Below are positions 1 through 18,867 of a DNA stretch of 26,211 nucleotides, in pieces (position 1 is the first letter of the stretch; each line of letters opens with the position of its first letter). The notes under the pieces are model-generated. The model was not told the origin of the DNA. It worked only from the letters and a program-made list of their open reading frames with translations, and did no database searches. Made by a program: the position numbers and the translations under genes. The stretch is from Monosiga brevicollis MX1 (lineage: Eukaryota; Opisthokonta; Choanoflagellata; Craspedida; Salpingoecidae): the NCBI RefSeq assembly GCF_000002865.3, contig NW_001865064.1, positions 398,262 to 424,472 of the forward strand, read 5' to 3'.

Positions 1-110
1 ACCAAAAAAAGCAACAACAAAAAAACACACAAAAAGTAAACAAGAAAGCTTGCTGTTGCCCAAGCTGTGGTGGTGCTGATGCTCCTCGCTCCTTACTCCT
101 CATTTTTCAG

Positions 111-806
111 GACCCAAATGGTGCCAATGACATGAGCGAGAGCAAGCGTAGTGTGAAAGTCGAACCTCTTGATGAGGGTAAGGAAGAAGTTTTTGAAACG
201 GAACTACCCACGGCACCCCCGCCTCTCAGTCCGCGCGAGGAGCGTCGGAGCACACGTATTATGCGACGCCTGACCTTTTGGGGCCGTAAAGGCAAAGATG
301 GCAAGAGCACCGGTGAACCGGGCTCAGGAAGCCAGGAGCATCTGAACGATCTTGGCGACGCCAGCCGAACACCGCCCTTTACCACAGACGTGGACACAGA
401 TGACGATGAGCAGGAGCCAGCGCGCGAACGCAATCGCGTTCGGGATCGATCTGCGTCAGGCGGGAGCTCGTTGCGCCCCCCACAACGGAGGTTATTTCAG
501 GTGTTGTTCCCCAATGGCTCCTCGTCACAGGTCTCGGTTCTTCCGGGACTGGACCTGCAAGCAGTACTACGAGACGCTTTTGTGCGTCATGGCATTTCGT
601 TGGATTCGCACCGCGTGGTTGTGGCCGCCAATGCAGGTGAATTGGAGGTGGCGCTGGATCGCGATAGTTCCGACTTTGAAGGACTGGAACTTCGAGTGCA
701 GAACGTGGACGAGGAGCCAGAGGCTGAGCAAACCAAAATATCCTATGTGCGAAGCGTCTCCAGTGGGTCAGCCCACAGTGTTGATGCTGAGGTGTCATTT
801 GTGTGA
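111..806 (+). CDS. Ras-binding-domain protein, last exon (5' partial)
   Basis: The gene continues off the left edge. A pyrimidine-rich tract ending in CAG at 110 looks like a 3' splice site, and the frame is open from 111 through the ATG at 132 to the TGA at 804-806. If the ATG at 132 is the true start, the protein is 224 residues. Residues 1-119 are charged, Ser/Pro-rich and probably disordered, with a basic patch at 38-58. Residues about 120-192 match a Raf/RGS14-type Ras-binding domain: a first strand with FPNG, a PG turn, the helix LQAVLRDAF, a RHGI motif, and a closing EGLELRV strand. Such domains bind GTP-loaded Ras or Rap, so an effector or scaffold role is likely. The last three residues, S-F-V, fit a class I PDZ ligand. 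The gene faces the receptor phosphatase tail to tail. The domain call is fairly sure; the full identity is not. Confidence 0.72.
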   Translation, partial: DPNGANDMSESKRSVKVEPLDEGKEEVFETELPTAPPPLSPREERRSTRIMRRLTFWGRKGKDGKSTGEPGSGSQEHLNDLGDASRTPPFTTDVDTDDDEQEPARERNRVRDRSASGGSSLRPPQRRLFQVLFPNGSSSQVSVLPGLDLQAVLRDAFVRHGISLDSHRVVVAANAGELEVALDRDSSDFEGLELRVQNVDEEPEAEQTKISYVRSVSSGSAHSVDAEVSFV

Positions 807-1160: not shown

Positions 1161-2560
1161 CTACAGCTCGTATCGCCAATCAGCGGCTTTGAGCTTGGCC
1201 AAAACAGCCGTAAAGCAGAATTCGTATTGCTGAAGTGTTTGCACCAATCGAGCGCGTTGCTCGCGCAAGTGCCGCAAAATGGCTGCTGCCTCAGGAATGC
1301 GCTGCGTGGAGAATGATAAACGGACGTTTCATGAGTCTGGCTCGCAAACTCTGCATAATTTCGTCTACAGATGTTACTCACCTTGCGTCTCAAGATGGCT
1401 AGCATGGCCATGGTTTGCACAACCACACCAGTACGCCCGATGCCAGCTGAACAATGCACGAGTGTGTACATGTTACGAGGGTGCGCGGCGCGCAACGACT
1501 CAACTTGATCAATCAGCGCCAAAAAGCGATCAACGTCTGGTACGCCACTGTAGTTGGAAAGAAATCACAGCAAACACAGCAAAAACGCAATGAGATGAGC
1601 TCCATCCTCGACCTGAATCCGGGCAACACCGCCGGCTTGTCGAGCAACTGTGGCATTATGCATGGAAGGTGATGTGATAAAACGTACTGGTCTGGCCAGC
1701 CCAAATATTGCACGTGTGTGACATGCCGGCGCTCGTTGGTCAGACGATGAATCAGCGTCAACTCTGTCGTCAAAATGACTCGGTCGTACGGGTCGTCGCT
1801 TGTTTGCGATACAAACTCGACGACAAAACTAGGAGTCTTGAGGCCGCCTTGGTCTGATGAGGGCCAGTACCTGCGCCACAAGCCCACCCCCCCCAAAAAG
1901 CGTGCAATGAATTCAACCACATTTGGAATTGAAAGCGCGCGTGTCTTTACAACAGGTAGCAATTGGTCAAGAAGGTGAAAGGGATGCAAGTAAGAAGAAA
2001 ACCCAACTTACGGCGCGCACTTGCTCCGACCGTCCTCCTGCAGCTTGGCCACCATAACGATCACCTAGCGAGTAAAAACAAGGCAGATAAGATAAGAATG
2101 AAACAGTGTCATGCAGCAACTAGGTGGCTTGGGGTGAATAAAAGGCGTGGAAGAGGCCGGGGCATGCCGTACTCGAACATCGTTTTCCCAAATCAGCTGC
2201 CAGTGATCGTCCACCGTCTGAGAGGTGGGTCCCTGAGCACAGATAAAGTAGAAAGGGGCCTCCTCGTTGGGAAACGTCACGTAGTTGGCGTTGATGTAGT
2301 CTGACCCAGTGATGCCACGTCGCAACTTGACGCGGGTATCATCGTAAGCCAAAATATCCGTATATCTATCGATGTTGGCGGCATTGAAATTCGATTGACA
2401 TGTGAGTGCGTTTATGAAAAAAATGCAGCAAACCGACACGGGCACACGAGCTTCCGATGCAGAGCCCCACGGGAGGGTTCTGTGCAGTTTAGGATTACAG
2501 ACTCGCAAATTGAGACAAACCGATTTTTTGTCGAGTTTCGTCGGCTGGAGCTGAACGAGC
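1161..2560 (-). other. Protein tyrosine phosphatase domain (exons 12-17)
   Basis: Across five introns the joined frame shows every class I cysteine-phosphatase landmark in order: KNRYTDILAYDDTRVKL (the phosphotyrosine loop, rebuilt over intron 2520-2366), DYINANY, a QGP motif, WEND-VIVMVAKLQEDG, KCAPYWP, GWPDHGVP (general-acid Asp, rebuilt over intron 1687-1548), HCSAGIGRTG (nucleophilic Cys and Arg, near 1431-1461) and LVQTLQQYEFCF (Q-loop). Only one phosphatase domain is present, and it ends six residues after ADWRYEL begins, with no long tail. It should be active. Confidence 0.95.
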
Positions 2561-5500
2561 CACCCTGTCGCTCCCTGAAAATTGAGTCATACGTATTGGC
2601 CGCCTCCTTTCGCTGCTCAGTCAAGTGATCGAGCTGGGCCTGCCGCACATCCTTGCCCTTGGCCACAGAGGCCACGTCCAGACTGCCAACGGCCTCGGGT
2701 GCCACCCGGGCTACATACGGCTGAGGAGGTAGATCCTCGTTGAACTTGACTTTTCGTGGATCACACAAAATTCCGTGCCGAGGGGCCGCGGCAAAATACC
2801 AGTAACCATCAACAGTGCCATTGTTCAAACCGTTTGCTGTGTCAAGCTCAACACCGCACCGAGCACCGGGCTTGGTCGCATGCAGGCCAAAATATCGTAG
2901 AGTACCCCAACCATAGCCCAGCACATACACGCGGCTGCCCACGTGTTCGGGGCCTACACCCAGGGACACGTCTTCCACACCAACAACGCCCGTGTCTGGC
3001 GCCGCGTCGTAGTCAATCTGAACCTGAGTTTCCGTCTCTGAAAAGGATACAGAGTTGCGGGTGCGCCCATAGCGTCCTGGCTCTCGCGTAGCAACGGATG
3101 TTTCCAAGGAAGCCGGCTCATCAAAGGTCGCATCGTAGGATTTGCCCCCTGTGTGGGCCATGGGAATGCCTGCATCGTCTGGGTTGGTGATGTCGTGCGT
3201 TTGTTGCCGACGCTTGCGCCGTCTCAGCACGACAACCAACACCACCAGCAGCACGATAACAGCAACTGCCACGACTGGGCCGACTATCAAGCTCATTCCA
3301 GCTGCGCCGGACGAGCCCGTAGAGGCATCACCAGAGCCCGGAGCGCATTCTCGATCTGATGTCAGAGTTGGAGCTGTGGCCTCGTGCTCACCTTCGGAGC
3401 AAGTGCTTACCGCAATGCATACTGCATCGCTTGTAGCCGTGGCTGCTTGTGCCTCGTATGTTGAACCCGCCTCGCACACAGTTGCGTTGGCGCAGATGCG
3501 GTCCGTTGTCACAGTGGGCGCCATCTCGGCATACTCAAAAGGCGCGCACTGCGTCAGGTTGACGCACTGTCGATCGCTGCTGGCCCCGGGTGCCACAACC
3601 TCGTACTCTCCTGTCACGCACATGGTTACGTTCTGGCACATGCGATCTGAGGTGGGTGTAGCAGAGCGAGCCTCAAACTCGCCCTCCGTGCACGTAGTAA
3701 GCCAGGCACACACACGATCCGACGTTCGCGTGGCTAATGTTTCTTCAAAGGCGTGCGTCGCATTGCACACCGTCAGCCGAGAACACGTGGCGTCGCTGGT
3801 GGGGGAGGCAGCTCGCGTTAGGTACTCTGTCTCCTCGCACTGTGTGGCTCTCGTGCAGACGCGATTGCTCGTGGGAGTCGGTGCGATGGACTGGTACTCC
3901 AAGGCAGTACAGGCCGTGAGGCCCAGACACAGGGCCTGGGTCACATTCTCATATTCCAACCCCGGGACGCAATTCAGGTTGCAGCTGGTCACGTTGACAC
4001 CGTTTTCATAGATTTGATGTGGGTAGTAACCTGCGTCACTGCCCAACACCACGTTCACCGGGGTGGTTGTTCTTAAGTTATAAGAGAACTCGAGTTGCGT
4101 CTGTTCAGCACCGGCTCGCACCGGCCCGCTGAGCAGTTGCACCACAAGCGAACCTGCAGCATCAGCCTGTTGGTTGATAAATACGTATGAAAGCGCAAAG
4201 GCGCTCTCATTGAGCAAAAATCCCGGAACAGCGACCGTAAATTCGTTCTCGTCTTCGTCGGAGCGCTGCCCTTCCCAGACAAACCCGCTCTCGTGGGCAG
4301 TTATCAAGCCTGCAAACAGCGTAGGATTGGACGCGGCGGTCGACTGCAGGCCCTGCGGGTCTGGGATAGCTCGGCGAAAATCAAACAACAGCGCCGTAGC
4401 GCCAAGGCTCACGTCCAGCGCTGCGAGCCGTACACCAAACGTAGCCAGACAATCGGGCCCGGCCCGGCCAACCGTACGGTAGACGTCCTCGACCAGGCGA
4501 CCGAGTCCAGCAAGAGCATTGAGCTGTGCCGCCACGTCCCGAATGGTTACCATGCCGTCGCCGTTGGCATCCAAGCCTCGACCCGCATTGCTGTTGTTGG
4601 CCAGTAGCTGCAGAATTTGTTGGCCCCGCGGTGACGCAAACTCGGTGAGCGCCTCGACAGCGTAAAACAAAGTCAACTGCGCGTCGGCCACATCAAAAAC
4701 GCAATCGCCATCGACATCAAAAGGCGAGCATTGATCCTCCATGCCAGGTTCAACTCGCCGCACTCGCTCCTCCACAGCCACAGCCTCGCTGTTCCGCAAT
4801 ACCCGCGGGCTGCGTCGACGACTGGAGCTGGAAGGGGCGACAAAGACAGGCGTGGCGGCCACAGCGGCACGTGGTGTTGTTGCACCAATCGTGGCGGCGG
4901 GCACGGATTTATCCTTGAGCGTCTGGATGTCCACGTTAAGGGGATTTGTCGGCACCGCAAGCAGCTGGAGCGTGATGGTAAATAGTGGCACGGCACTGCC
5001 CGTGGCGGCGCCCTCGAGCAAGCCGGCCACACTGACGCTAGATTCCCCGACATTTGAGGAGAAGCGGCCTTCAGCATAAAGCGAATCCACGCTTCTGACA
5101 ACGGCCATCCCAACAGGCACCTGCACGCTCAGAGCAAAGGCACCAAGGTCTTGCGCGCCCACATTGGCAGAGAACGCAAGCTGCACCGTATCGCCAGGTT
5201 GTGCTTCAATCACGCTGCTCCCCTCGATGTCAGCAAGACCTGCGTCCACGTCCCCAACAGCAGGGGCAAGGTTGACGGTACATGGGAGAGTTGTGTCGAC
5301 GCTTGCACCGTTGACACCGGGCGCTGAGACCACCAGCGTTGCTCGTCCGTTACGCCGTACGACACTCTCGCCGGTTAAGGTGTCGACAAACAGGATGTCC
5401 GAGTCCAAGCTTGAAAAAGACAGCAAGCCCGGAACAGGCGCTTCAAAGCTGGTGCTCGCCAGCAAATCTGCCCGATACGTGCCGTCGGAGAAATGCACGA

Positions 5501-8500
5501 TGCCTTGTGGGATAAAGGCTCCATGATCAGCAGTACCGATTAGCTCGGTTAACGTCAAACTTACCACGGCCTGCGCATCGCCATTGAGGGGCTGCAGATT
5601 CAAGTTGGTGATATTTGTCACCATCACGCCGCTGCGGGGGTCAAAAAAGAGTTCTGGCGAGGTGGCATTGAGGTCAAAAAAGCCCGCGGATAAAATCACC
5701 GAGCCAGCGGTCTGAGGCACAATGCGATCGTTTGAGGGAAGCGTGGCTGAAGGTGCGTCATCTGGCAAGCCAGAGGTCGTTGATAAAGAGGCAGTCACAA
5801 CAGTTGGACTGAGCTCTGTGTTGGTGTTGTCGCTCAAGCTAAGCCAATAACGCACTGTCAAGGGCTGATATGTTGGAGTGCTTGCGCCCAAGTATAGGGC
5901 GGCGGTGGTTGTGGGATTGAACACCTCCCCATACGTGCCAACTGCCACAGTAAGCGCCGTGCCGGTCACTACATTCACGCTCCATCGTCCTTCGACTTCC
6001 CCGTGCAAGGAAGACGTGAAGCGGAGGGTAATGTTCGCAACTCCGCCTGCACGACCCACGATCGCAACCCGTCCGTTACTTAAAACCTGCACACTGACTC
6101 GTGCCGCTGGCTCGACCCATGCAGACAGTGAGCCGGCCAGAGCAGCTGAGGATAGAACCTGGCCGTCTTCGAGGGTCACACGGGGTTCAAGAACGGCGGT
6201 TGAGGGCAAGATGGTGGCGGCAGCACCATTGGCGGGTGCCAAGCGAGCTGGAAGGTCAAGTGCATTGATTGACAACCTAGCAGCTCGCAAGAGTGCGACG
6301 GGGATGCTAACATTGCGAGCAGGCAGGCGCGTTGCGTCACAGCTATTACGAAGTTGAGCTGTGACTACAGGAGCTGATCCGTTGGCCGCGGCGATCGCGC
6401 GCACTTGATTATCATTCTCAAGCACCAGAACTGCTGGATCCTGAAGATCAAACGTGAGCCCATCCACGGCACTCACAACCTCTGTCGTGTTGTCCTCAAA
6501 CACCACCTGGGCCGCCAGCGTCAAACGATCAGTTGTCGTTTTCAGCGCATTGACGAGGCGTTGAATGTGCAGCTCATATCGACTGATCGATCCCGGGGTT
6601 TCACTGGGTACTGACAGGGTCAACGCCGATAATGGCATAACATCAAGTTGCGCCACGTATGCTGCAGATAGAGACACGGTCAGCGAGTTCTGGCTGACGA
6701 TTTGGGCACTGACAGGATTCACCATGGTCAAGGTGTAGTTGCCAGCCGTGGTGGGCTGGAAACGGAGACCCACACCACGCTCAGACGAGCGAGACGCAAC
6801 CATATTGACCGGGCCTTGGGCGGCCACAATGTCCGCCGGCACCATGGCTGTCACATCCAAATGGTCCATGCGTGCCGGAGATTCAAACTCTGCAACCACG
6901 CTGAGCTCAACCGCTTGGAATCGAGGCTGGCAGGTGGCCCCGGCTTCCCAATTGGCGACGCGGTGGCTTACGGATCGCGAGAGACGCAACGCATACGATC
7001 TGGCCACAGCCCACACCATGGCGTGACTGGCCATAACATTAGACCCACGCACGCGAAACTCAACCATGGTGCTCGTGGTCAAAAGTCCAGCCAGAGCGGC
7101 AGCCTCGCACCCAGAAGCGAGCAAAGTTTCGCTTGCCCACCACGTGCATTCCAAGCCTGTGCTTTCGGACGGCGTTGACGAGATGGTCGACGCATCCAAG
7201 AGCACCCAGCTGGAGTTTTGGTATAATGCCCAAAGCTGTAAAGCGCCACGCTGCAGCAAGGCGCCTCCAATCGACGTGAGATCAAACACATGTGAGGCAG
7301 GCTGTTGAATGGCCAGTGCAGCTGGTTGCTCGCTGCCACTCAGAAACAGCAAAGGCCTATTTGGCACACGCCCGCGTGTGGCCGTCGTCCAAGCTCCATT
7401 TGCCAAATTGAGCGCGGTCTGCTGCTCATCTAGCAATTCAACAAGCGATAGAGAAAAGGCTATAGTAGCATCAATCGGAACGATTGTAGCCACCCGAGCA
7501 TGAAGGGTTGCAAGCAACGCCTCGTTGGCACCTGCCGTTGCGTCCGGGCGCAATGTGTACCCCATGGCTGCAACTGATTCTTGCAACGTGAAGGTGCCAA
7601 CCCAGCGCGCCGAATCGGCGGTCACGGAAGTCAGCACAAGGTCTGAGCTGTTCACAGACGCCACCAAACGATAGCCTGCCGGATTGAAAGGGAGCTCGTG
7701 CGTAATGGGTATTGACACGAGCTCGCCCGGGTACAAGGTGCGATGCGGTAACCAAGCCACAGCCGCATCACCCCGAAGCTCAACGGAGGCATGCCTTGCC
7801 ACGAGCAGGTCCGTTGCTCCCAACACCACACCCCCAAAGCTGGCAGTCACGTTTAAGGTGGCAATGACGCCAGGGGGCAGTACCGAAACGCTTGCACCAA
7901 AACTCAAAGTCACGCGACACCGTGAAGCAGACTCGACGATGCATGAGGCAGAGGTCAGTCGTTTGCCAGGCTCAGACCACGCTTCCACAGTGATTGCGGT
8001 ACCTTGTGATATTGTATGTGCCCCCTCTGCATCAGCTAAGACGACCCATAGGACGGGGTCAACCTCTTCAACGTAGGCGGGTCTTGCACGCGGGGCATGA
8101 AAGCTGGCTAAAGCTGGCAAGTGACCAGGTAAAGCAATTTCAAACGCGGTTTGTACACCAGCCACTCCAACGATGACTTGACCATCGTCGACAGCCATTA
8201 CGCTGACTGTTCCGTTGACCGCGCTATCTGAACGCCATGCAAGTTCAGGTAAGGCGCCCCCCATAGCCTCGAGGTGCACCGGGAAGGAGGGTTCAAAGGT
8301 TGGCAGCCCTGAGCAAACACGGTCGCTGTAGAGCGTCGGAGGCAATAGCTCCCGTTCGTTGAGAGCACACACTGTCAAGAGCTGGCACACGCGATCTGTG
8401 GACGTGGTGGCATTGAACAGAACGTACTCCAGTGTTTCATCACAGACCGTGAGGGCAGCACATTGGGTATCACCGCTCGACGTGCAGGCGTGCTGCTCGT

Positions 8501-11500
8501 ATTCCCCGGGCGTGCACATTGTGCAGTCAGTGCAGCTACGATCAGATGAGGCGGTAGCTTGGCGACTGACAAACTGAGAGGTGTTGCAGAGAGATACGGC
8601 CCTGCAGACGCGGTCGGAGCTATGCGTCGGTGCGTTGAGCTCATATTCGCTCAGCGAGCAATCGGGTGAGACAAGCTGGCACACCTGATCCGCAAAGGGT
8701 GTTGCGGCCTCTGCCAAAAATTGATATTGGTTTGTGGAGTTTGAGGGTTGAGCGGTGTTTCGGCGAACGCGGGCCCTTGTACGCAAGTAAGAAATGGACG
8801 GAAGTGTCGTTGGGAGGCCAAGCGCATCGGGATCAACCTGAACAACCGCACACATGATTTGTCCACCCATATTTGCGACAACGAAGCCCGTGCATTCCAA
8901 GTTGCTGTCGCAAATGGAGCTGCACTCAGTTGAGTCAACTCCAGGAAGCTCACTGATGATGTTGATACTTGAGATGTTGAAGATGGCAGGTTCTGCGATA
9001 CCATCCAACGCCCCCACAAAGGCAACGGTGTAACCCTCGCCAGGTTCATTAAGGCCGGTAGGAAGGGTGGTTGGTAATGGTGGCGGTACATAGTTTGGGC
9101 TCAGCGTGGCCTCAGACGCTCTTGTCGGTTCGTAGGTTGTAGCCTCGGTGGTTGTAGCCTCGGTGGTTGTAGCCTCGGTAGTCGTGGCGTCAGGGGTCGT
9201 GGTCGTGGCTTCTAAAGTCGTAGCCTCGGTGGTTGTAGCCTCGGTGGTTGTAGCCTCGGTGGTTGTAGCCTCGGTGGTTGTAGCCTCGGTGGTTGTAGCC
9301 TCGGTGGTTGTAGCCTCGGTGGTTGTAGCCTCGGTGGTTGTAGCCTCGGTGGTTGTAGCCTCGGTGGTTGTAGCCTCGGTGGTTGTAGCCTCGGTGGTTG
9401 TAGCCTCGGTGGTTGTAGCCTCGGTGGTTGTAGCCTCGGTGGTTGTAGCCTCGGTGGTTGTAGCCCCGGTGGTCGTGGCCTCGGTGGTTGTAGCCTCGGT
9501 GGTTGTAGCCTCGGTGGTTGTAGCCCCGGTGGTTGTAGCCCCGGTGGTTGTAGCCCCGGTGGTCGTGGCGTCAGGGGTCGTGTTCGTGGCTTCTAAAGTC
9601 GTAGGCTCGGTGGTTGTAGCCTCGATGGTCGTAGCCTCGGTGGTTGTAGCCTCGGTGGTTGTAGCCCCGGTGGTCGTGGCCTCGGTGGTTGTAGCCTCGG
9701 TGGTTGTAGCCTCGGTGGTTGTAGCCTCGGTGGTTGTAGCCTCGGTGGTTGTAGCCCCGGTGGTTGTAGCCCCGGTGGTCGTGGCGTCAGGGGTCGTGGT
9801 CGTGGCTTCTAAAGTCGTAGGCTCGGTGGTTGTAGCCTCGATGGTCGTAGCCTCAGTTGTCGTGGCTTTGGTGGTCGTGGCTTCGGTGGTCGTGGCTTTG
9901 GTGGTCGTGGCTTCTGTAGTCGTAGGCTCGGTGGTCGTGGCTTCTGTAGTCGTAGGCTCGGCGGTGCTAGCCTCGGTGGTCGTAGCCTCGATGGTCGTGG
10001 CCTCGGTATTCATAGCCTCAGTGGTCATAGCTTCGGAGGTCGTGGCCTGTCGGGTTGTGCTGGGTGACCAGATGATTGTAGACGTTTGTGTTGATGACTG
10101 GGATGAAGGTGTCTTTGACGTCGGAGCTGTTGATATCAAAGTACTTGTCACCCATGAACCTGAACTATCGTCGTCGTCGTTGTCGTCGTCATTCGTGGCA
10201 CGGCTTGTCCCGGGCGCTTCAGTGGTTGTAGCCATTGGCTCCAACGATGCGACAAATGATGACATGTTGACTGTCACTGCTACGCTGCCGCGTAACACTT
10301 CTGTTTGAATCATCGCAAGCGCATCTGGCAAGCCGTAAACTTGCACCGCACCTCCACGATGAAAAACAAAATCACCCATGCCCGTTGCGTCGATACCAAG
10401 CAAACTAAAGGTTTGATCAAGACTCGCCACAGCTTCCTCCAAGCGCAAGCTCGTCCATGGAGCGCCAAGAGCCGAGGCAAAGTTTGGACCAAAATACAGG
10501 GTGAGGGAGCTTTGCTCAATAAAGTAGATGCATGGTGACACAGCCTCGCACTGACGATCCGAGGTGATGGAAGGGGCATGGGACTCGAATGTCATGATGC
10601 CATCACACGGAGCTCTAACCAGAGCGCAAGTGCGATCGCTGCTGGGTGTCGCTGCTTTTACCTGATACGTCGAGATGCCATCGCAGAAGGTCAATGGCAC
10701 ACACACGCGATCAGAGGTGGGTGAAGGTGCACTTTCTTGATATTGATGCTGGTCACATATGGTCAACTGCTGGCAAGTTCCATTGGCAGCTTGAAACTCA
10801 TCGTCAGCGCAGAGCACCACACTGGTTGATGTAGATGTGGACGTTGAGACTGACGTTGAAGTGGAGGTTGAGGTTGAAGAAGAGGTTGCAGTTGAAGAAG
10901 AAGTCGCAGTTGAAGTCGAGGTCGACGTGGAGGTCTGCGTACTCGTGGAAGTGCTTGAAGACAAGGAACTAGACGTAGACGTGCTTGTCGAAGACACAGA
11001 GGTCGAGGTCGATGTAGATGTGGACGTCGTTGTTGAAGTGCTTGAAGACTCGAGCATGGCTGGATTGAATGTCGCCGGGCTGGCTGCGAGAATGAAGCCG
11101 CGAGAATCGACCAGAGTGTACGCGTGCTGAAAGACTGCATCGCTATAAAAGAAGCCACACCGCGAGCAATCAGCATTTATGCAGCTGAGCCGGGAAGCTC
11201 GGAGAAGATTGCGGCTTTGAGGGAGGTGACACATACCGAAGAACACGAAACGCCTGCGAAGAAGCAACCGATGCACGGACGATGATGGACCCGGGCTCGA
11301 CTTCTAAAATGGCAACTTGACTGCCAAACTCATTGCCTAGCAGGGTGTACGTAAATTCTTGCAGCTCCAAGATGAGTCTCGAGGGATCTGCACCAACGAC
11401 CTGTGCAAATGCAAAAGTGAAAGTCAGAACAGGCCAGTCAAGGCTGGAACGATGAGAATCAAAGGAGGACTTGACCACACCAAGCAAAGCACATCATGAT

Positions 11501-14500: not shown

Positions 14501-17500
14501 CAAATTGCACGAATGGCACTCTGCACTGCATTGGCAGGCATGACCATAGGCATCCACGCGTGCAACACAAGCTGTGCTACACAGCTGAACATCACGGCAG
14601 GCTCTGCATGTTGTGATCACAAGCAAGTCAGACAAAATGATCACCAACATGGCTCAAGCGATTGATCAATGTTGTTTTACGTACTGGGCAGAAGTTGGGG
14701 TGGGAGGAGCAGTTTGGTATTCGCCGTCACCGCAGGTCACGTTGACGCACTGTTGGTCGGTAGAGGCGGTCGGGGCCACGGCTTCTGTTTCCAGATACAG
14801 CCGGCAGTCTGCGGATTGATGGCAGGAGAGTTCAGGTTAGAGGGAGATTGGAAGGTTCATGCACACTTGCAAGGCAAAGCGTGCTTAATGCAGCACAGAC
14901 TTGCCCGTTACGGGGGTACATTGACGGTCGGTGGTCGTCGTTGGCGCAGCGGTTTCGTAGGTGTCCTTTGTGCAATTAGAGACGGGTAAACAGACCCGAT
15001 CGTGTTCACCAGTGCAAGTACTGTTTTCAAACTCGGTGGGTGCGCAGGTCTGGCAGCGTGCGCAAACAGTATCAGCCGTGGCACTGCAAGCTGTGCGAGC
15101 ATAGAGATCAGCGACAGCCGGGCAGACACTGCAGCTGGCACATTGCCGCGCTGACGTAGGGGTAGGGGCCCTGGTTTCGTACTCGGTCATGGTGCAGTTG
15201 ATCTGAGTTCGACAAACACGATTTGAAGTGGGCGTGGGAGCCAACAGTTCCCACTCATGATTGCTACACGTGCGAAGTGCCACGCAGATGCGATCGGTGG
15301 TGGGAGATGCGGGCACTATCTCAAAGCGTGACTGGCCGCACACAGTATATGGGGTGCACATCCGGTTGGTGGTGGCTGTCGGGGCGGCCAGTTGATATTC
15401 CCAGCTGTTGTTGCAGGCAGGACGAAGCAACAAGCACGTGCGATCAGAGGTTGCAGTCGGGGGCTGAACTTGATACTGTGTCGTCTCATCACACACGGAG
15501 ATTGCTTCGCAAACTCGGTTTGTGGAGGGTGTCGGTGCCTCCACCTCGAATTGTTGCGTGCTGCACTCTGTAGGAGGTGGAATCATGAGTGAGGGTGGTT
15601 TGACTTTGCTGTAGATCTAATTGGCTCCCTTTCCCCAGCCACACAATCAAGAGGCAAGCATGCACGCCATCCCGCCACTGCCTTGTCGAGGGTGTAGCTG
15701 TACGAGTTGCACGTACCATTGAGAGCAGTGCATTGCCGATCAGAAGTAATCGTTGGAGCGACTTCCTCAATCTGGTCGCTATCGCAGGCAGCGCTTGTGT
15801 TGACGCAGGCCAAGTTGGCAGCCAAATACTGGAATGATGCACAATTGGGCTCAACGCAGCTAGGTAAACAGAGAAAATGATGAAATCAAAAAAGCATGGC
15901 AAAAGCATCAGCTACCCACGAAACTGCAGCAAAGAAGCTTAGCATCAAGAATGATCTGCTGGAGAAGGAAGATGCGCCTTGAGCATTTTTGTCAGCACGT
16001 ACAGGCGGTCTGAGGTCTGCGTAGGGGTGCGCATTTCCAACTCTGAACCAGAACACGAGGGTGAGAAGGAAGCACACACGACATCTGAGGAGGCCGTGGG
16101 AAGAGCTGCAACGTAGGTCGAGCAGACACCGCAGAACTCAAAGGCATTGGCCGTGCCCTCGACAAAGCACCAAGCTGTACGCTCCCCGTCTGCAGGCGCG
16201 GTGGCAAGGGACATGAGCAGAAAGAGGAATGGCTCGTGTCATGGTGCATGGGAGTGAGAGCTAGACAAAGTCGTCAGGCCAGGCGCAACAAACCAGGGTT
16301 GCGGCAGTAGTTGTGACGCAAGTCGGCATTGGGGTAGAGCTCCGGCGTCACGAGGTTGGCTTGCGCAACGCTAGAGGACCAGGGCAAACATGTCTTGCCC
16401 GACGATGTCTTATTAATCTGGCCGCGATAATTGGCATTGTCACCGTCATCAAATGCGCAACCCTCGATGGAGCCGCAAAGGTCCTCGAGGGGCACGCAAA
16501 TACGATCCGAGGTCGCGGTTGGTTGCCGCAGCTGGTATGTATTAGGTGAGCATGCCGTGTGGGGCAAGCAAGCCTGTGCGTCGCCAGTGGCATTCGCCTG
16601 CGTAATGCGAGGAGTCAAGACGCAAAGGAATCGGTTAGCGTTTCAAAAGCAATAAACGTGGCATTCATCCTGAGGGTGGTCAACTGAGTACAGTGGGAGG
16701 ATGAAGAAACGCCAAACACACGCGATAGGTGCCTGCCGGACAGTCAGGATGAGGCTCGCAGTAGCGATTAAAGTTGCCAGCCCCCGAATTTCGCAGCGTG
16801 TTGCTGGCTTCTTGACAGTCATCGTAGCACGCTCCTTGCCAAAAGTAGCGACCTACGCAAGACCAAGACCAGACGGTGCAAATCAAAGAAGATTATAAGA
16901 TTTTGAGAAAGAGGATTGTTTAGCAGACCAAGCGGGCAGCGTCAAGCTGTGAAGGGATGGCCAACAGATGACAGGCCGATGCGGTGGTGATGGGGACGAG
17001 TGGGGCGTTATAGCAAGAGAAGGCAGACGACCAAGTACCATTTTTGCACTGGGTGCATGTCGCAGAGTCATCCTCGTAAATGAGGCAAGAGTAGCACTGA
17101 TAGGGACATTGACATGATGTCCCTGCTGTTGTGGCAAACCCGATGCATGTTGTAATCTCTACATGTGGGAGCAAGCGATGACATGGTGCCAGACGCAAAA
17201 GAGAATGGCATTGGATTAGCGAGGGGCAAAGGGAATGTGTGCAGCTGGACTGAACTGGGTGGGTGGCGCAAGCAAGGGTAGGCAGACCGTTGCAAAAGAG
17301 AGAACTCTCGAGGGACGTGGCATTGACGGTCGCAGCGTCAGCAATGGGGACGGGGTTGAAGGTGAGAAGGGACGCAACGTCCGACGTATCCAAGGGATCT
17401 AGAAGAAGGAGGTGAACTTGAATGTCGGCATCGACGGCCAGCTGCAAAGCGGCCTGGGTGGCGTTCAGATCATGGGGGGGCGTCGACGCTAACAGCACAA

Positions 17501-18011
17501 TGTGCTGCTCAAGGCCGGTATCCTGGGCACTGGATGTGGCAGCGGTCAGGTGATTGGTCGCGCGGGTCACAGCTCGCTGCCAGCGACTGATGCCACCGTA
17601 GCTCTGGTCAATGCTGGCGAGTTGATCCACAAGTTGATCACTGGAAGGGAGGGGATCGGATGTGCATTGTGTGGAGACTGCACAAACAAAGTTGCTGAAT
17701 TCATAAGCCTCGTAGCGCGTGGCATTGCCCCGCGCGTTGTCGGCGGCGGCGGCCAACCGAGCGACGAGCGATTTTCGTGCTGTGAACGCTGAGCTAGAGA
17801 CACCGTAGGCGCCATCAATGAGAAAGACGGCATGAATGCTCACATCCTCGCACACCGGCGCTTGGCCCACAACAGTGGGCGTGCTGATGCTCGCAACAAA
17901 GAGCAGCAGCAGTAGCAGCGAGCTGAACCCCTGAAGGGCTGCTTGATAGGCCGAATGCCCGCGACTGCAGCCTAAGACCTTTGCCAAAGGCACTCGGCCA
18001 AGGCTGAACAT
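1161..18011 (-). CDS. Giant receptor-type protein tyrosine phosphatase, 17 exons
   Basis: A single-pass receptor predicted to remove phosphate from phosphotyrosine in the cytoplasm. Proposed exons, 5' to 3': 18011-17288, 17158-17039, 16852-16722, 16597-16294, 16189-16003, 15859-15643, 15565-14905, 14808-14685, 14603-14468, 14313-11515, 11400-11237, 11184-2521, 2365-2179, 2064-2012, 1870-1688, 1547-1382, 1301-1161. Every junction keeps phase, and the total (14,961 nt, stop TAG at 1163-1161) gives about 4,986 residues. The ATG at 18011 is followed by a signal peptide. Two joins lie inside recognisable domains (Kringle; the KNRY motif of the phosphatase) and restore them exactly, which supports one gene. 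The least certain join is 15643/15565. One intron is GC-AG. The 8.66-kb exon 12 carries most of the ectodomain, the membrane helix and the CAP-Gly domain. The ligand is unknown. Domain parts are listed separately. Confidence 0.85.
2745..2945 (-). other. CAP-Gly domain between membrane helix and phosphatase
   Basis: Residues about 4602-4669. Visible are VGSRVYVLGYGWGTLRYFG, a CGVELD strand, GLNNGTVDG in place of the usual GKNDG groove, YWYF, HGILC and RKVKF. CAP-Gly domains bind C-terminal EEY/F motifs of alpha-tubulin and EB or CLIP proteins. The change of K-N-D to L-N-N in the groove could weaken or alter that binding. The domain sits about 90 residues after the membrane helix, with about 70 more residues before the phosphatase. 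Confidence 0.85.
3225..3293 (-). other. Transmembrane helix of the receptor
   Basis: Twenty-three residues from SLIVGPVVAVAVIV to VVVL with no charge, followed at once by RRRKRRQQ, a typical cytoplasmic stop-transfer signal. Together with the N-terminal signal peptide this gives type I topology: cysteine repeats and mucin outside, CAP-Gly and phosphatase inside. Confidence 0.93.
3330..3990 (-). other. Juxtamembrane TNFR-like cysteine repeats
   Basis: Eight or so units of C-x4/5-YE-x4-PT-x-TSDR-x-C follow one another up to the membrane helix, with strongly conserved spacing. They belong to the same family as the membrane-distal array, so the two blocks probably arose by duplication. Confidence 0.8.
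4490..4735 (-). other. Dockerin-like pair of calcium-binding loops
   Basis: Two EF-type loops, DVDGDCVFDVAD and DANGDGMVTIRD, are followed by hydrophobic helices (AQLTLFYAVEAL, VAAQLNALAGL) and separated by about 45 residues. Acidic or polar ligands sit at loop positions 1, 3, 5 and 12, as in dockerin and EF-hand loops. The pair lies directly after the cohesin-like segment, which suggests an intramolecular or partner contact. Confidence 0.65.
4910..8280 (-). other. Beta-rich Ig-like and cohesin-like ectodomain modules
   Basis: About 1,120 residues with few cysteines and repeated beta-strand patterns. One segment near 5210-4910 (IEAQPGDTVQLAFSANV, GAFALSVQVPVGMAVV, ending PLFTITLQLLAV) resembles a cohesin-type jelly-roll. 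A second near 7740-7560 (LYPGELVSIPI, YRLVASVNSSDLVLTSV) has the same opening pattern. Between them are bacterial-Ig-like stretches such as LAAQVVFEDNTTEVVSAVDG. Mixed cohesin and Ig modules are known from animal TMEM132 proteins, but the relation here is my inference. Confidence 0.45.
8780..9000 (-). other. Apple/PAN-like module
   Basis: Just after the EATTT tract the protein reads INIISELPGVDSTECSSICD, then LECTGFVVAN, MCAVVQ, and SYLRTR. The pattern of a short strand, a CxxxC helix, C-x-G-F-V and a closing cysteine strand fits apple/PAN domains, which bind proteins or glycans. Disulfide number looks reduced, so the call is moderate. Confidence 0.45.
9130..10050 (-). repeat. 15-bp minisatellite coding for EATTT
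   Basis: The + strand unit gtagcctcggtggtt is repeated about 60 times, giving E-A-T-T-T on the coding strand (residues about 2234-2541). A core at 9221-9470 is nearly perfect. Variants give G, K, I, L or P at fixed positions. A longer block with gtggcgtcaggggtcgtg and ttctaaagtcgta recurs at 9184, 9565 and 9781, so there is higher-order duplication with a 216-bp spacing in the last pair. The 15-bp unit keeps the frame, so length changes would only alter stalk length. The product is probably an O-glycosylated rod. Confidence 0.92.
11185..11236 (-). other. 52-bp intron
   Basis: Donor GTATGT, acceptor GGCTCAG, phase 2. It is the shortest intron in the window. Joining across it turns VLR into VLRCINADCSRCGFF in the open frame of the large exon. 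Confidence 0.65.
11240..11590 (-). other. SEA-like module between Ser/Thr tracts
   Basis: The end of exon 10 joined to exon 11 gives about 75 residues with alternating hydrophobics: VSWMFPNNYEEVVG, LILELQEFTYTLLG, VAILEVEPGSIIVRASV. Length, the PGSIIV-type final strand and position beside mucin tracts recall SEA-type domains. No autocleavage GSVVV motif is clear. A related stretch occurs near 10200-10540 (SLTLYFGPNF...GSVAVTV). Family call is tentative. Confidence 0.4.
11560..13180 (-). other. Mucin-like Ser/Thr-rich stalk, first block
   Basis: About 540 residues, almost all Ser and Thr with Pro, Ala and Val, inside exon 10. Such tracts are usually heavily O-glycosylated, extended stalks. 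Near its N-terminal end, 13007-13132, it contains an 18-bp tandem repeat encoding TTSTTR/M. Confidence 0.8.
13007..13132 (-). repeat. 18-bp coding tandem repeat (TTSTTR)
   Basis: The + strand unit gtagacgtggtccttgtt recurs about six times in register from 13007, with four nearly perfect copies at 13025-13096 and diverged copies on both sides. On the coding strand it gives a hexapeptide of five Ser/Thr residues and Arg or Met. The unit length keeps the frame. Confidence 0.8.
14328..14370. repeat. A-rich homopolymer tract inside an intron
   Basis: Runs of A broken by a few G residues on the + strand, which is a T-rich pyrimidine tract in the transcript. It lies in the intron 14467-14314, just upstream of the acceptor CTCGTAG, so it probably serves as a long polypyrimidine tract. 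It is likely length-variable. Confidence 0.7.
14809..14904 (-). other. GC-AG intron
   Basis: The donor reads GCAAGT after the phase-1 base at 14905, and the acceptor is CCGCAG. No GT donor near this point gives the needed phase, while GCAAGT restores the repeat sequence CTPVTDCRLYLETEA. GC-AG introns are a known minor class spliced by the major spliceosome, normally with a strong donor match as here. Confidence 0.7.
16122..16459 (-). other. Kringle domain split by a phase-1 intron
   Basis: Residues about 372-449. The first exon carries YRGQINKTSSGKTC, PWSS, PNADLRHNYCRNP. The intron 16293-16190 (GTTTGT...GCAG) splits the next Asp codon, and the second exon continues DGERTAWCFVEG...FEFCGVC. 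The restored NPDGE-x-AWC and final cysteine pair match the Kringle family closely, and six Kringle-type cysteines are present. Kringles are small disulfide-bonded protein-binding modules of secreted and receptor proteins. The exact reconstruction of NPDGE across the splice is strong support for this junction. Confidence 0.88.
16722..17158 (-). other. Furin-like cysteine module, copy 1 (exons 2-3)
   Basis: Exons 17158-17039 and 16852-16722 join to give a cysteine-rich module with the spacing C-x-C-x3-C-x2-C, then CTQCKNG, RYFWQGACYDDC and NFNRYC. The intron 17038-16853 falls inside the Gly codon of CKNG. A second copy with the same landmarks lies at 14603-14180. A third, without the intron, is near 13330-13540. 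This points to internal duplication of a furin-like or growth-factor-receptor-like module. Confidence 0.65.
17307..17930 (-). other. Signal peptide and degenerate VWA domain of the receptor
   Basis: Residues about 28-49 form a Leu-rich hydrophobic core after an unusually long, basic N-terminal stretch, with likely cleavage near VVGQA. Residues about 58-235 follow the VWA fold pattern: a first strand AVFLID, a helix, the strand before EFSNFV, a YGG-containing loop, then strands HIVLLAS and IQVHLLLLD. The metal-binding DxSxS is replaced by DGAYG, and the TDG-type motif is missing. VWA folds usually bind protein ligands, often through a metal; metal-dependent adhesion looks lost here. The fold assignment is moderately sure. 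Confidence 0.6.
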
Positions 18012-18867
18012 GGTTCAGTTTGAGATCCCTATCGGACGACCTTGCCCTCGACCTCGAGGCCTTGTCGCGCGTGCGCGATTCGATCCCGCCGACAGGGAAA
18101 GCGGGGCAGGTTTGTGGAAACCATGTACATGCGCTCTGGCCAAAAGATGGCTGCCAAGACCAAGCACCACCATGAGAGGCCCGGTCGTGGCACCGAAAAT
18201 CAAGAAAATCAACGCTGCGATTGGCTCACGCTGGTGACGTACTTTTAATGTGTCTGTCCCAAGAAAGAACCGAAAAAAAAAAAGTGGGGGGCCGGGGGCA
18301 TTGAAAGTGCCATCTGTGGTTGTTGTCCACAACAAAACGCAGGTGATGGTGGGCGGGCTTGGGCTGTGTGATGTACTACGCCACACGCACACACAACAAT
18401 GCAACTTTCCAGCCGTTTTACATGCATGCACGCACATCCAGATTTGATGACATTGATATCAACAGGTGTTTTCAACGTTTTTCCTCTCTGTCGATCTGTC
18501 ATGTTCTCTTCGCTTTTCTCTTGCGCTCTTGGCCTTCAAACTCTCTCCTTCTTTCTCTCCTCTTCTCTCTCCTTCTCGCTCTCTCTCAAACTCTCTCTCA
18601 AACTCTCTGTCTCTCTCTCTCTTTCTCTCTCTCTCAAACTCTCTCTCTCCTCTTCTCTCAACTCTCTGTCTCTCTCTCTCAAACTCTCTCTCAAACTCTC
18701 CCTCTTCTCTCAACTCTCTGTCTCTCTCTCTCAAACTCTCTCTCAAACTCTCCCTCTCTCTGTCTCTCTCTCTCTCAAACTCTCTCTCTCAAACTCTCCC
18801 TCTCTCTCTCTTCTGTCTCTCTCTCTCTCTTCTCTCTCACTCTTTAGAGGGGTGACGCGTGCGGTGG
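18012..18867. promoter_or_regulatory. Shared upstream region of two divergent genes
   Basis: The receptor gene starts at 18011 going left, and the VPS9 gene at 18868 going right, so about 856 bases separate the two start codons. No convincing ORF lies inside. It contains an A/G-rich tract at 18270-18300 and a pyrimidine minisatellite next to the VPS9 start. I see no TATA box. A bidirectional promoter is likely from position alone, and 5' untranslated exons could also lie here. Confidence 0.5.
18530..18845. repeat. CT-rich minisatellite
   Basis: About 315 bases almost purely pyrimidine on the + strand, built from (CT)n runs broken at intervals by CAAA, as in ctctctctcaaactctctct. The larger pattern recurs irregularly every 20-60 bases. 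It ends 22 bases before the ATG at 18868. GA/CT tracts can form H-DNA and can bind GAGA-type factors; both are possibilities only. Open frames through it are low-complexity artefacts. Confidence 0.92.

Follow-up and report, generated by a model that had tools for sequence, protein, structure and literature searches.

The stretch of DNA analysed here, called the window throughout (26,211 nucleotides of Monosiga brevicollis contig NW_001865064.1), raises the question of what a CAP-Gly domain does inside a receptor tyrosine phosphatase, since on the minus strand such a domain is preceded by a membrane helix and followed by a classical protein tyrosine phosphatase (PTP) domain that is complete. 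The answer that we favor, with a probability of roughly 0.55, is that the locus represents one large receptor PTP gene, the CAP-Gly domain of which was spread by shuffling and would dock the phosphatase to the partner of the RTKC receptor tyrosine kinases (RTKs), thereby placing it in opposition to these kinases. That M. brevicollis RTKC kinases carry CAP-Gly domains is already known (RTKC1-10; PMC10263333). What we regard as new is a phosphatase counterpart that carries the CAP-Gly subclass of the kinases together with their common groove change. The features of the locus are as follows, in the direction of reading:

16922..18014, minus strand: possible N-terminal exon with Met, a hydrophobic signal-like stretch and a VWA domain (PF00092, 33.7 bits, cut-off 23.8)
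2521..11303, minus strand: large exon encoding ectodomain, membrane helix, juxtamembrane region, CAP-Gly domain and the first PTP residues (open frame, donor at 2520); 11303 is an upper bound set by the stop-to-stop frame, and the actual 5' junction lies below it
4881..6899, minus strand: TMEM132-like Ig (sixth-domain) match, PF23487, below cut-off (25.8 bits against 27.8)
4113..4880, minus strand: dockerin-like stretch, Dockerin_1, below cut-off (15.8 bits against 22.9)
3340..3985, minus strand: membrane-proximal Cys repeats, TNFR_c6-like, with approximate limits (PF00020; translation)
about 3231..3287, minus strand: membrane helix IVGPVVAVAVIVLLVVLVV, followed by VLRRRKRR (hydropathy scan, translation)
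2748..2942, minus strand: CAP-Gly domain of the receptor subclass, with RCGVELD, GLNNG and GIL (PF01302, tree, alignment columns)
3' end of the large exon, minus strand: NSTKN plus two bases of an Arg codon, the start of the PTP on the CAP-Gly exon
2366..2520, minus strand: intron 1, GTTTGT...CGATAG, interrupting an Arg codon (phase 2); splicing yields KNRYTDILAYDDTRVKL (splice model)
2173..2365, minus strand: PTP exon 2 with YTDILAYDDTRVKL and DYINANY (PF00102; splice model)
2065..2172, minus strand: intron 2, GT-AG (splice model)
2012..2064, minus strand: PTP exon 3 with VIVMVAKLQEDGRSKCA and part of a Pro codon (splice model)
1871..2011, minus strand: intron 3, GT-AG (splice model)
1688..1870, minus strand: PTP exon 4, extending to WPD and into a His codon (PF00102; splice model)
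1548..1687, minus strand: intron 4, GT-AG (splice model)
1382..1547, minus strand: PTP exon 5 with GVP and the catalytic loop HCSAGIGRTG (PF00102; splice model)
1302..1381, minus strand: intron 5, GT-AG (splice model)
1161..1301, minus strand: PTP exon 6 with QTLQQYEFCF, then the stop codon (splice model)

In a stop-to-stop reading of the window, the frame 2412-11303 on the minus strand is open over 2963 codons and includes the CAP-Gly domain. Within the 3172-aa model that starts from 11303, the membrane helix is the sole segment exceeding a hydropathy of 2.2 (3.37), and with this single helix and TNFR_c6-type repeats upstream of it the protein has the layout of a receptor. Hence, the continuous frame from Cys repeats through the membrane helix into the CAP-Gly domain, as given in a preliminary description of the locus, is confirmed. 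The identity of 2748-2942 as a CAP-Gly domain, which that description proposed to check by a profile search, is far beyond chance: in the whole-genome profile scan it matches PF01302 over positions 1-65 of 65 (62.3 bits, E 1.5e-15), hmmscan returned 56.3 bits (E 3e-15, cut-off 26.5), and a phmmer search against PDB sequences matched solved CAP-Gly domains, the best being CLIP4 (2z0w; 3.6e-14). An AlphaFold prediction from a single sequence of 100 aa that covers just the CAP-Gly region yielded a mean pLDDT of 41.2 and a pTM of 0.28, for which reason no structural reading was drawn.

The ectodomain contains TNFR_c6 repeats in several stretches of the scanned pieces, and next to the membrane PF00020 reaches 44 bits over the whole piece 2415-6200, with no single stretch significant alone. 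Where a coherin-type ectodomain would have a cohesin followed by three BIG domains, only PF23487 was matched, below its cut-off. The VWA exon is assigned to the phosphatase gene provisionally. The Pfam matches obtained for the scanned pieces included neither a cadherin nor a kinase family, and no kinase was found in the window among the PF07714 matches listed. As separate observations, the TMEM132-like and dockerin-like stretches (window 4113-6899, minus strand; both below cut-off) may possibly form a cohesin-dockerin pair inside one receptor, and a long, mucin-like Thr/Glu/Ala repeat of the TTTEA type is located in the ectodomain at about 9136-10308 of the window (minus strand).

The PTP domain is spread across six exons, and all five introns of the splice model are of the GT-AG type. 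In the spliced product the motifs KNRY, DYINANY, KCAPYWP, WPDHGVP, HCSAGIGRTG and QTLQQYEFCF are all restored. It matches PF00102 with 231.7 bits (E 1.2e-68), covering profile positions 1-233 of 234, resembles solved classical PTPs and contains the catalytic Cys, the WPD loop, the Q loop and KNRY of a classical PTP; the enzyme is presumably active. No second PTP domain precedes the stop codon in the spliced model. The phosphatase was previously described as complete after one intron; it is complete, but five introns have to be removed to join its six exons.

Whether the CAP-Gly and the PTP domain form a single gene depends on the border between the large exon and PTP exon 2. The PF00102 match starts at the first Asn of NSTKNR, i.e., on the CAP-Gly exon, and as this exon also encodes the KN of KNRY together with two bases of the Arg that follows, a single gene is the most likely arrangement. 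Taking donors from 2760 on, there are 41 in-frame GT-AG junctions from the CAP-Gly frame to PTP exon 2; all of these keep the CAP-Gly domain in frame with the PTP with a loss of at most its last residue or two, and KNRYTDILAYD arises from 2520/2366 only. The alternative donor 2502 keeps KNR in the exon and inserts extra residues ahead of YTDIL. Convincing PTP character of the exon end appears limited to NSTKNR and is weak beyond it: a PTP N-terminal profile of 7 segments scored 3.1 bits, a value reached by 30 of the 940 scored shuffles (1000 shuffles, 940 with a reported score), and it was dropped as proof of PTP character for the exon end since 3.1 bits is too weak. The gene structure as a whole is well supported, and its exons would be joined in a single transcript.

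Two other arrangements have to be weighed against this. The locus could contain two genes, with the receptor that carries the CAP-Gly terminating at the 2412 stop codon and the PTP belonging to another gene with a first exon of its own. Indeed, the CAP-Gly frame is readable without splicing to the stop codon at 2414-2412, the PTP character of the exon end is weak and the donor of intron 1, GTTTGT, is not strong-looking, the last two points counting also against our preferred reading. However, a single phase-2 intron restores KNRY exactly, the PF00102 match already starts on the CAP-Gly exon, at NSTKNR, and the distance from the stop to PTP exon 2 is 46 bases only. Moreover, no Met upstream of the PTP was seen in its own frame in the translation of 2065-2586, so that no ATG is present there for a separate gene. 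Two genes are regarded as very improbable. Slightly more room, albeit little, is given to the production of both forms from the one gene, with retention of intron 1 leading to a phosphatase-less CAP-Gly receptor as decoy for the docking site and splicing leading to the phosphatase; the unspliced frame stays open for 35 codons beyond the split Arg codon before a stop follows, but the same could be read from many introns.

Profile scans of 39.47 Mb on 57 contigs resulted in 31 CAP-Gly matches and 83 PTP matches, grouped by hand into 24 and 39 loci, respectively, which are lower bounds. Among these, only at the window locus are a CAP-Gly and a PTP match no more than 10 kb apart in the same orientation. 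A second CAP-Gly phosphatase on C35 (CAP-Gly at 642-643k, PTP at 652k) was rejected as the two lie on opposite strands, and the PTP at 958-959k and the CAP-Gly at 980k of C52, one strand and about 20 kb apart, were taken as separate genes because a Met closely precedes the CAP-Gly. At least eight of the 24 CAP-Gly loci have a tyrosine kinase nearby in the same orientation, as counted from the kinase matches listed (C49, C53, C51, C52 at 888k, C34, C33 and two on C21). Kinase and CAP-Gly appear to share one frame, as read from equal frame lengths, on C49 (1884 codons), C53 (1109), C51 (1228), C34 (1001) and C33 (1048), and these five RTK loci show a hydrophobic helix ahead of the CAP-Gly with values of 2.22 to 3.07, the lowest on C51.

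Some of the RTK loci have features of their own. One RTK gene (C49:789500-798500) seemingly contains two receptor-subclass CAP-Gly domains, at C49:794288 and C49:794976. Two RTK genes are adjacent on C21 (C21:289000-307500; L017 and L018), and the first half of both kinase domains closely resembles RTKC8: against PDB 8E4T, which is the M. brevicollis RTKC8 kinase domain, the first stretches are 95.4% (L017, 131 aa) and 97.6% (L018, 125 aa) identical, and the second stretches 77.6% and 64.4%, respectively, in tblastn alignments that cross introns unheeded.

The relation of the window domain to these CAP-Gly domains was analysed in a tree of 24 rows, 20 from the M. brevicollis genome and four from solved domains. 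The tree rows make use of 22 of the 31 genome matches, with nine rows joined by eye from two exons, while nine partial or doubtful matches were left out (two at C36:508k, C36:625k, C56:3340k, two at C54:1369k, two on C35, and C23). The window CAP-Gly falls into a clade of 11 rows with a support of 100/96, the other members being nine domains of RTKs, encoded by eight genes, and the domain of an RPEL-like protein on C32. Closest to it are the RTK domains C53 and C21b (63%) and C33 (62%), and the 13 rows outside the clade do not exceed 43% identity to it. Furthermore, in a genome search with the window CAP-Gly alone, the next ten best matches were all from the receptor clade. The window domain has a long end branch (0.78), and the tree settles neither its place inside the clade nor the direction of transfer; this CAP-Gly may have changed its partner.

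The C32 row was dropped as a receptor, its open frame being without a membrane helix. The locus (C32:527000-534500) thus has a receptor-subclass CAP-Gly at C32:530375-530497 on a protein that we take to be an RPEL-repeat protein and that may belong, as a soluble component, to the same system.

Outside the CAP-Gly domain, no similarity of the window gene to 20 fetched regions, which hold only part of each ectodomain, was detected at E 1e-5 with low-complexity masked. This restriction of the similarity to the CAP-Gly domain points to domain shuffling and not to descent of whole receptors. Most likely, the receptor-subclass CAP-Gly, which occurs mainly on RTKC-type kinases in this genome, was spread between receptor genes in this way.

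The clade is also distinguished by its ligand groove. All 11 clade rows carry Arg in place of the Trp of GxW and Leu in place of the Phe of GxF. Neither replacement occurs in the other 13 rows of the tree, of which 11 have the Trp and 12 the Phe. At a third position, five residues ahead of the groove Trp, no clade row is aromatic, compared to Phe in nine of the 13 others. The window CAP-Gly accordingly has Arg, Thr and Leu at three groove positions that are mostly aromatic in ordinary rows, and the same positions are non-aromatic in all of its ten clade relatives. The GKNDG motif reads GLNNG in the window, as was noted before; throughout the clade its Lys position is L, R, K or N, its Asp position is N in 9 of 11 rows and its Asn is kept in all 11. 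The Phe column rests on the exon join in six of the nine joined clade rows (C53, C33, C51, C49a, C34 and C52b).

The nine matches left out of the tree represent eight domains, which were afterwards read by eye in three frames. Their Trp position is Trp in C36:509k, C36:625k, C54 and C56:3340k, Phe in C23, Leu in C36:508k and Tyr in C35:642k; in C35:643k, Trp is found at the end of the preceding exon, and Arg appears only when it is read unspliced. At GxF, which could be read in four of these domains, Phe is present in C36:509k and C56:3340k, Met in C54 and Leu in C36:508k (C36:508311). Since Leu at this position thus also occurs outside the clade, Arg marks the clade and Leu alone does not. 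The two CAP-Gly domains C36:508311-508427 and C36:509052-509183 are close neighbours, and one of them has Leu at two groove positions and no Arg.

By our mapping from the spacing, the three groove positions correspond to Trp185, Phe216 and Leu180 of Trypanosoma brucei TBC-B, which together with Val201 and Phe207 form its groove floor (PMC3806363). The aromatic floor of the EEY/F-binding CLIP/p150 type was not found in the window CAP-Gly. Arg for Trp and Leu for Phe in all 11 clade members make binding of an ordinary EEY tail doubtful, and with a pocket loss common to kinases and phosphatase the simplest reading would be a different ligand shared by both. We know of no ligand for the receptor CAP-Gly subclass.

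This has to be compared with the earlier proposal that the window CAP-Gly reads the alpha-tubulin EEY tail, or alternatively that of EB1, tying the phosphatase to microtubule ends beneath the membrane. Membership in the CAP-Gly family is clear, CAP-Gly domains recognise tyrosinated tubulin (PMC10404244), and the genome encodes the usual ligand tails, an alpha-type tubulin ending in GAEEY and an EB1 exon ending in EEAY. The Asn of GKNDG, which was reported to be H-bonded to the ligand tail (PMC3806363), is retained as well. However, Lys and Asn of this motif were both reported to be important for EEY/F binding by CLIP-170 (PMC9062740), and in the window Lys is changed to Leu and Asp to Asn; in addition, the groove Trp is replaced by Arg, the Phe by Leu and the third Phe by Thr, and the aromatics are lost clade-wide, as though for another ligand. 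The earlier proposal is weakened by these changes and appears unlikely, with binding of EEY by other groove contacts being possible.

For the favored docking of the phosphatase to the partner of the RTKC kinases, a mechanism can be outlined from its architecture, in which an adhesion-type ectodomain with Cys repeats is followed by a single membrane helix, the CAP-Gly in the juxtamembrane region and one classical PTP domain whose motifs are intact. The ectodomain might sense a cue or a contact. The juxtamembrane CAP-Gly would hold the phosphatase at the site used by the RTKC kinases via the same cytoskeletal or adaptor partner, and the PTP could remove phosphate from the products of these kinases, perhaps including the kinase tails, so that both enzymes would act on a common substrate pool at one membrane site. 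The shared partner is deduced from shared ancestry and shared groove changes, and kinases and phosphatase would then have a shared location in the cell. A bolder generalisation, for which we see somewhat less than even odds, is that the receptor CAP-Gly clade constitutes a docking module that is private to a single lineage of choanoflagellates and that, with a remade groove and a new ligand, would have ceased to read tubulin tails and would assemble kinases as writers and the phosphatase as eraser at one membrane-cytoskeleton site.

Animal tyrosine kinases and phosphatases are targeted by SH2, PTB, FERM or PDZ domains. M. brevicollis seems to use a CAP-Gly variant for such targeting, for kinases and a phosphatase alike. 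If the partner is shared, this would represent an independent solution for the co-recruitment of opposing enzymes in a lineage close to where phosphotyrosine signalling of animals originated, and in vitro tests could then be made on a well-delimited module with specified residue changes. Moreover, Arg for Trp combined with Leu for Phe provides a simple mark for such receptors in other choanoflagellate transcriptomes.

Compared to known systems, the RTKC kinases are the nearest: they are likewise described as large Cys-rich receptors with one membrane helix, a tyrosine-signalling enzyme and an intracellular CAP-Gly (PMC10263333), and their CAP-Gly is of the same subclass as that of the window phosphatase, as judged by the clade and the subclass residues. 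In contrast, their enzyme is a kinase and not a phosphatase, the RTK loci are without similarity to the window gene beyond the CAP-Gly at the above threshold in the regions fetched, and the domain order differs, with the CAP-Gly after the kinase in RTKs but before the phosphatase in the window, which counts against our preferred reading. Animal receptor-type classical PTPs such as PTPRS, LAR/PTPRF and PTPRA similarly have a membrane helix followed by a classical PTP with catalytic motifs, whereas the window gene has a juxtamembrane CAP-Gly, one PTP domain and an ectodomain with TNFR_c6-like, TMEM132-like and dockerin-like parts. LAR-type receptor PTPs are said to arise in choanoflagellates such as Monosiga, and the excerpt of that review of adhesion PTPs contains no mention of CAP-Gly (PMC7959691). 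Among the titles and abstract openings of the top-ranked results in the open literature searched, no CAP-Gly receptor phosphatase is described, an earlier listing of the gene being possible. The earlier remark that no described receptor phosphatase is known to carry a CAP-Gly agrees with these listings, but it overlooked the CAP-Gly RTKC kinases (PMC10263333).

The window CAP-Gly belongs to the same family as those of CLIP, dynactin p150Glued, CEP350 and TBCB by its profile and its match to solved domains, and it differs from these by the replaced groove Trp and Phe, by GLNNG and by its location in a membrane receptor. Lefftyrins carry a PTP. TMEM132-like domain sets occur in choanoflagellate and sponge cadherins (PMC6030884), and the window gene resembles the TMEM132 family, coherins, lefftyrins and hedglings in its TMEM132-like Ig and dockerin-like stretches, both below cut-off here; unlike coherins, lefftyrins and hedglings, it gave no Pfam match to a cadherin in the window pieces that were scanned. 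Finally, on the opposite strand, just downstream of the phosphatase gene, an open frame at 3-806 (plus strand) encodes a Raf-like Ras-binding domain (PF02196, 32.5 bits).
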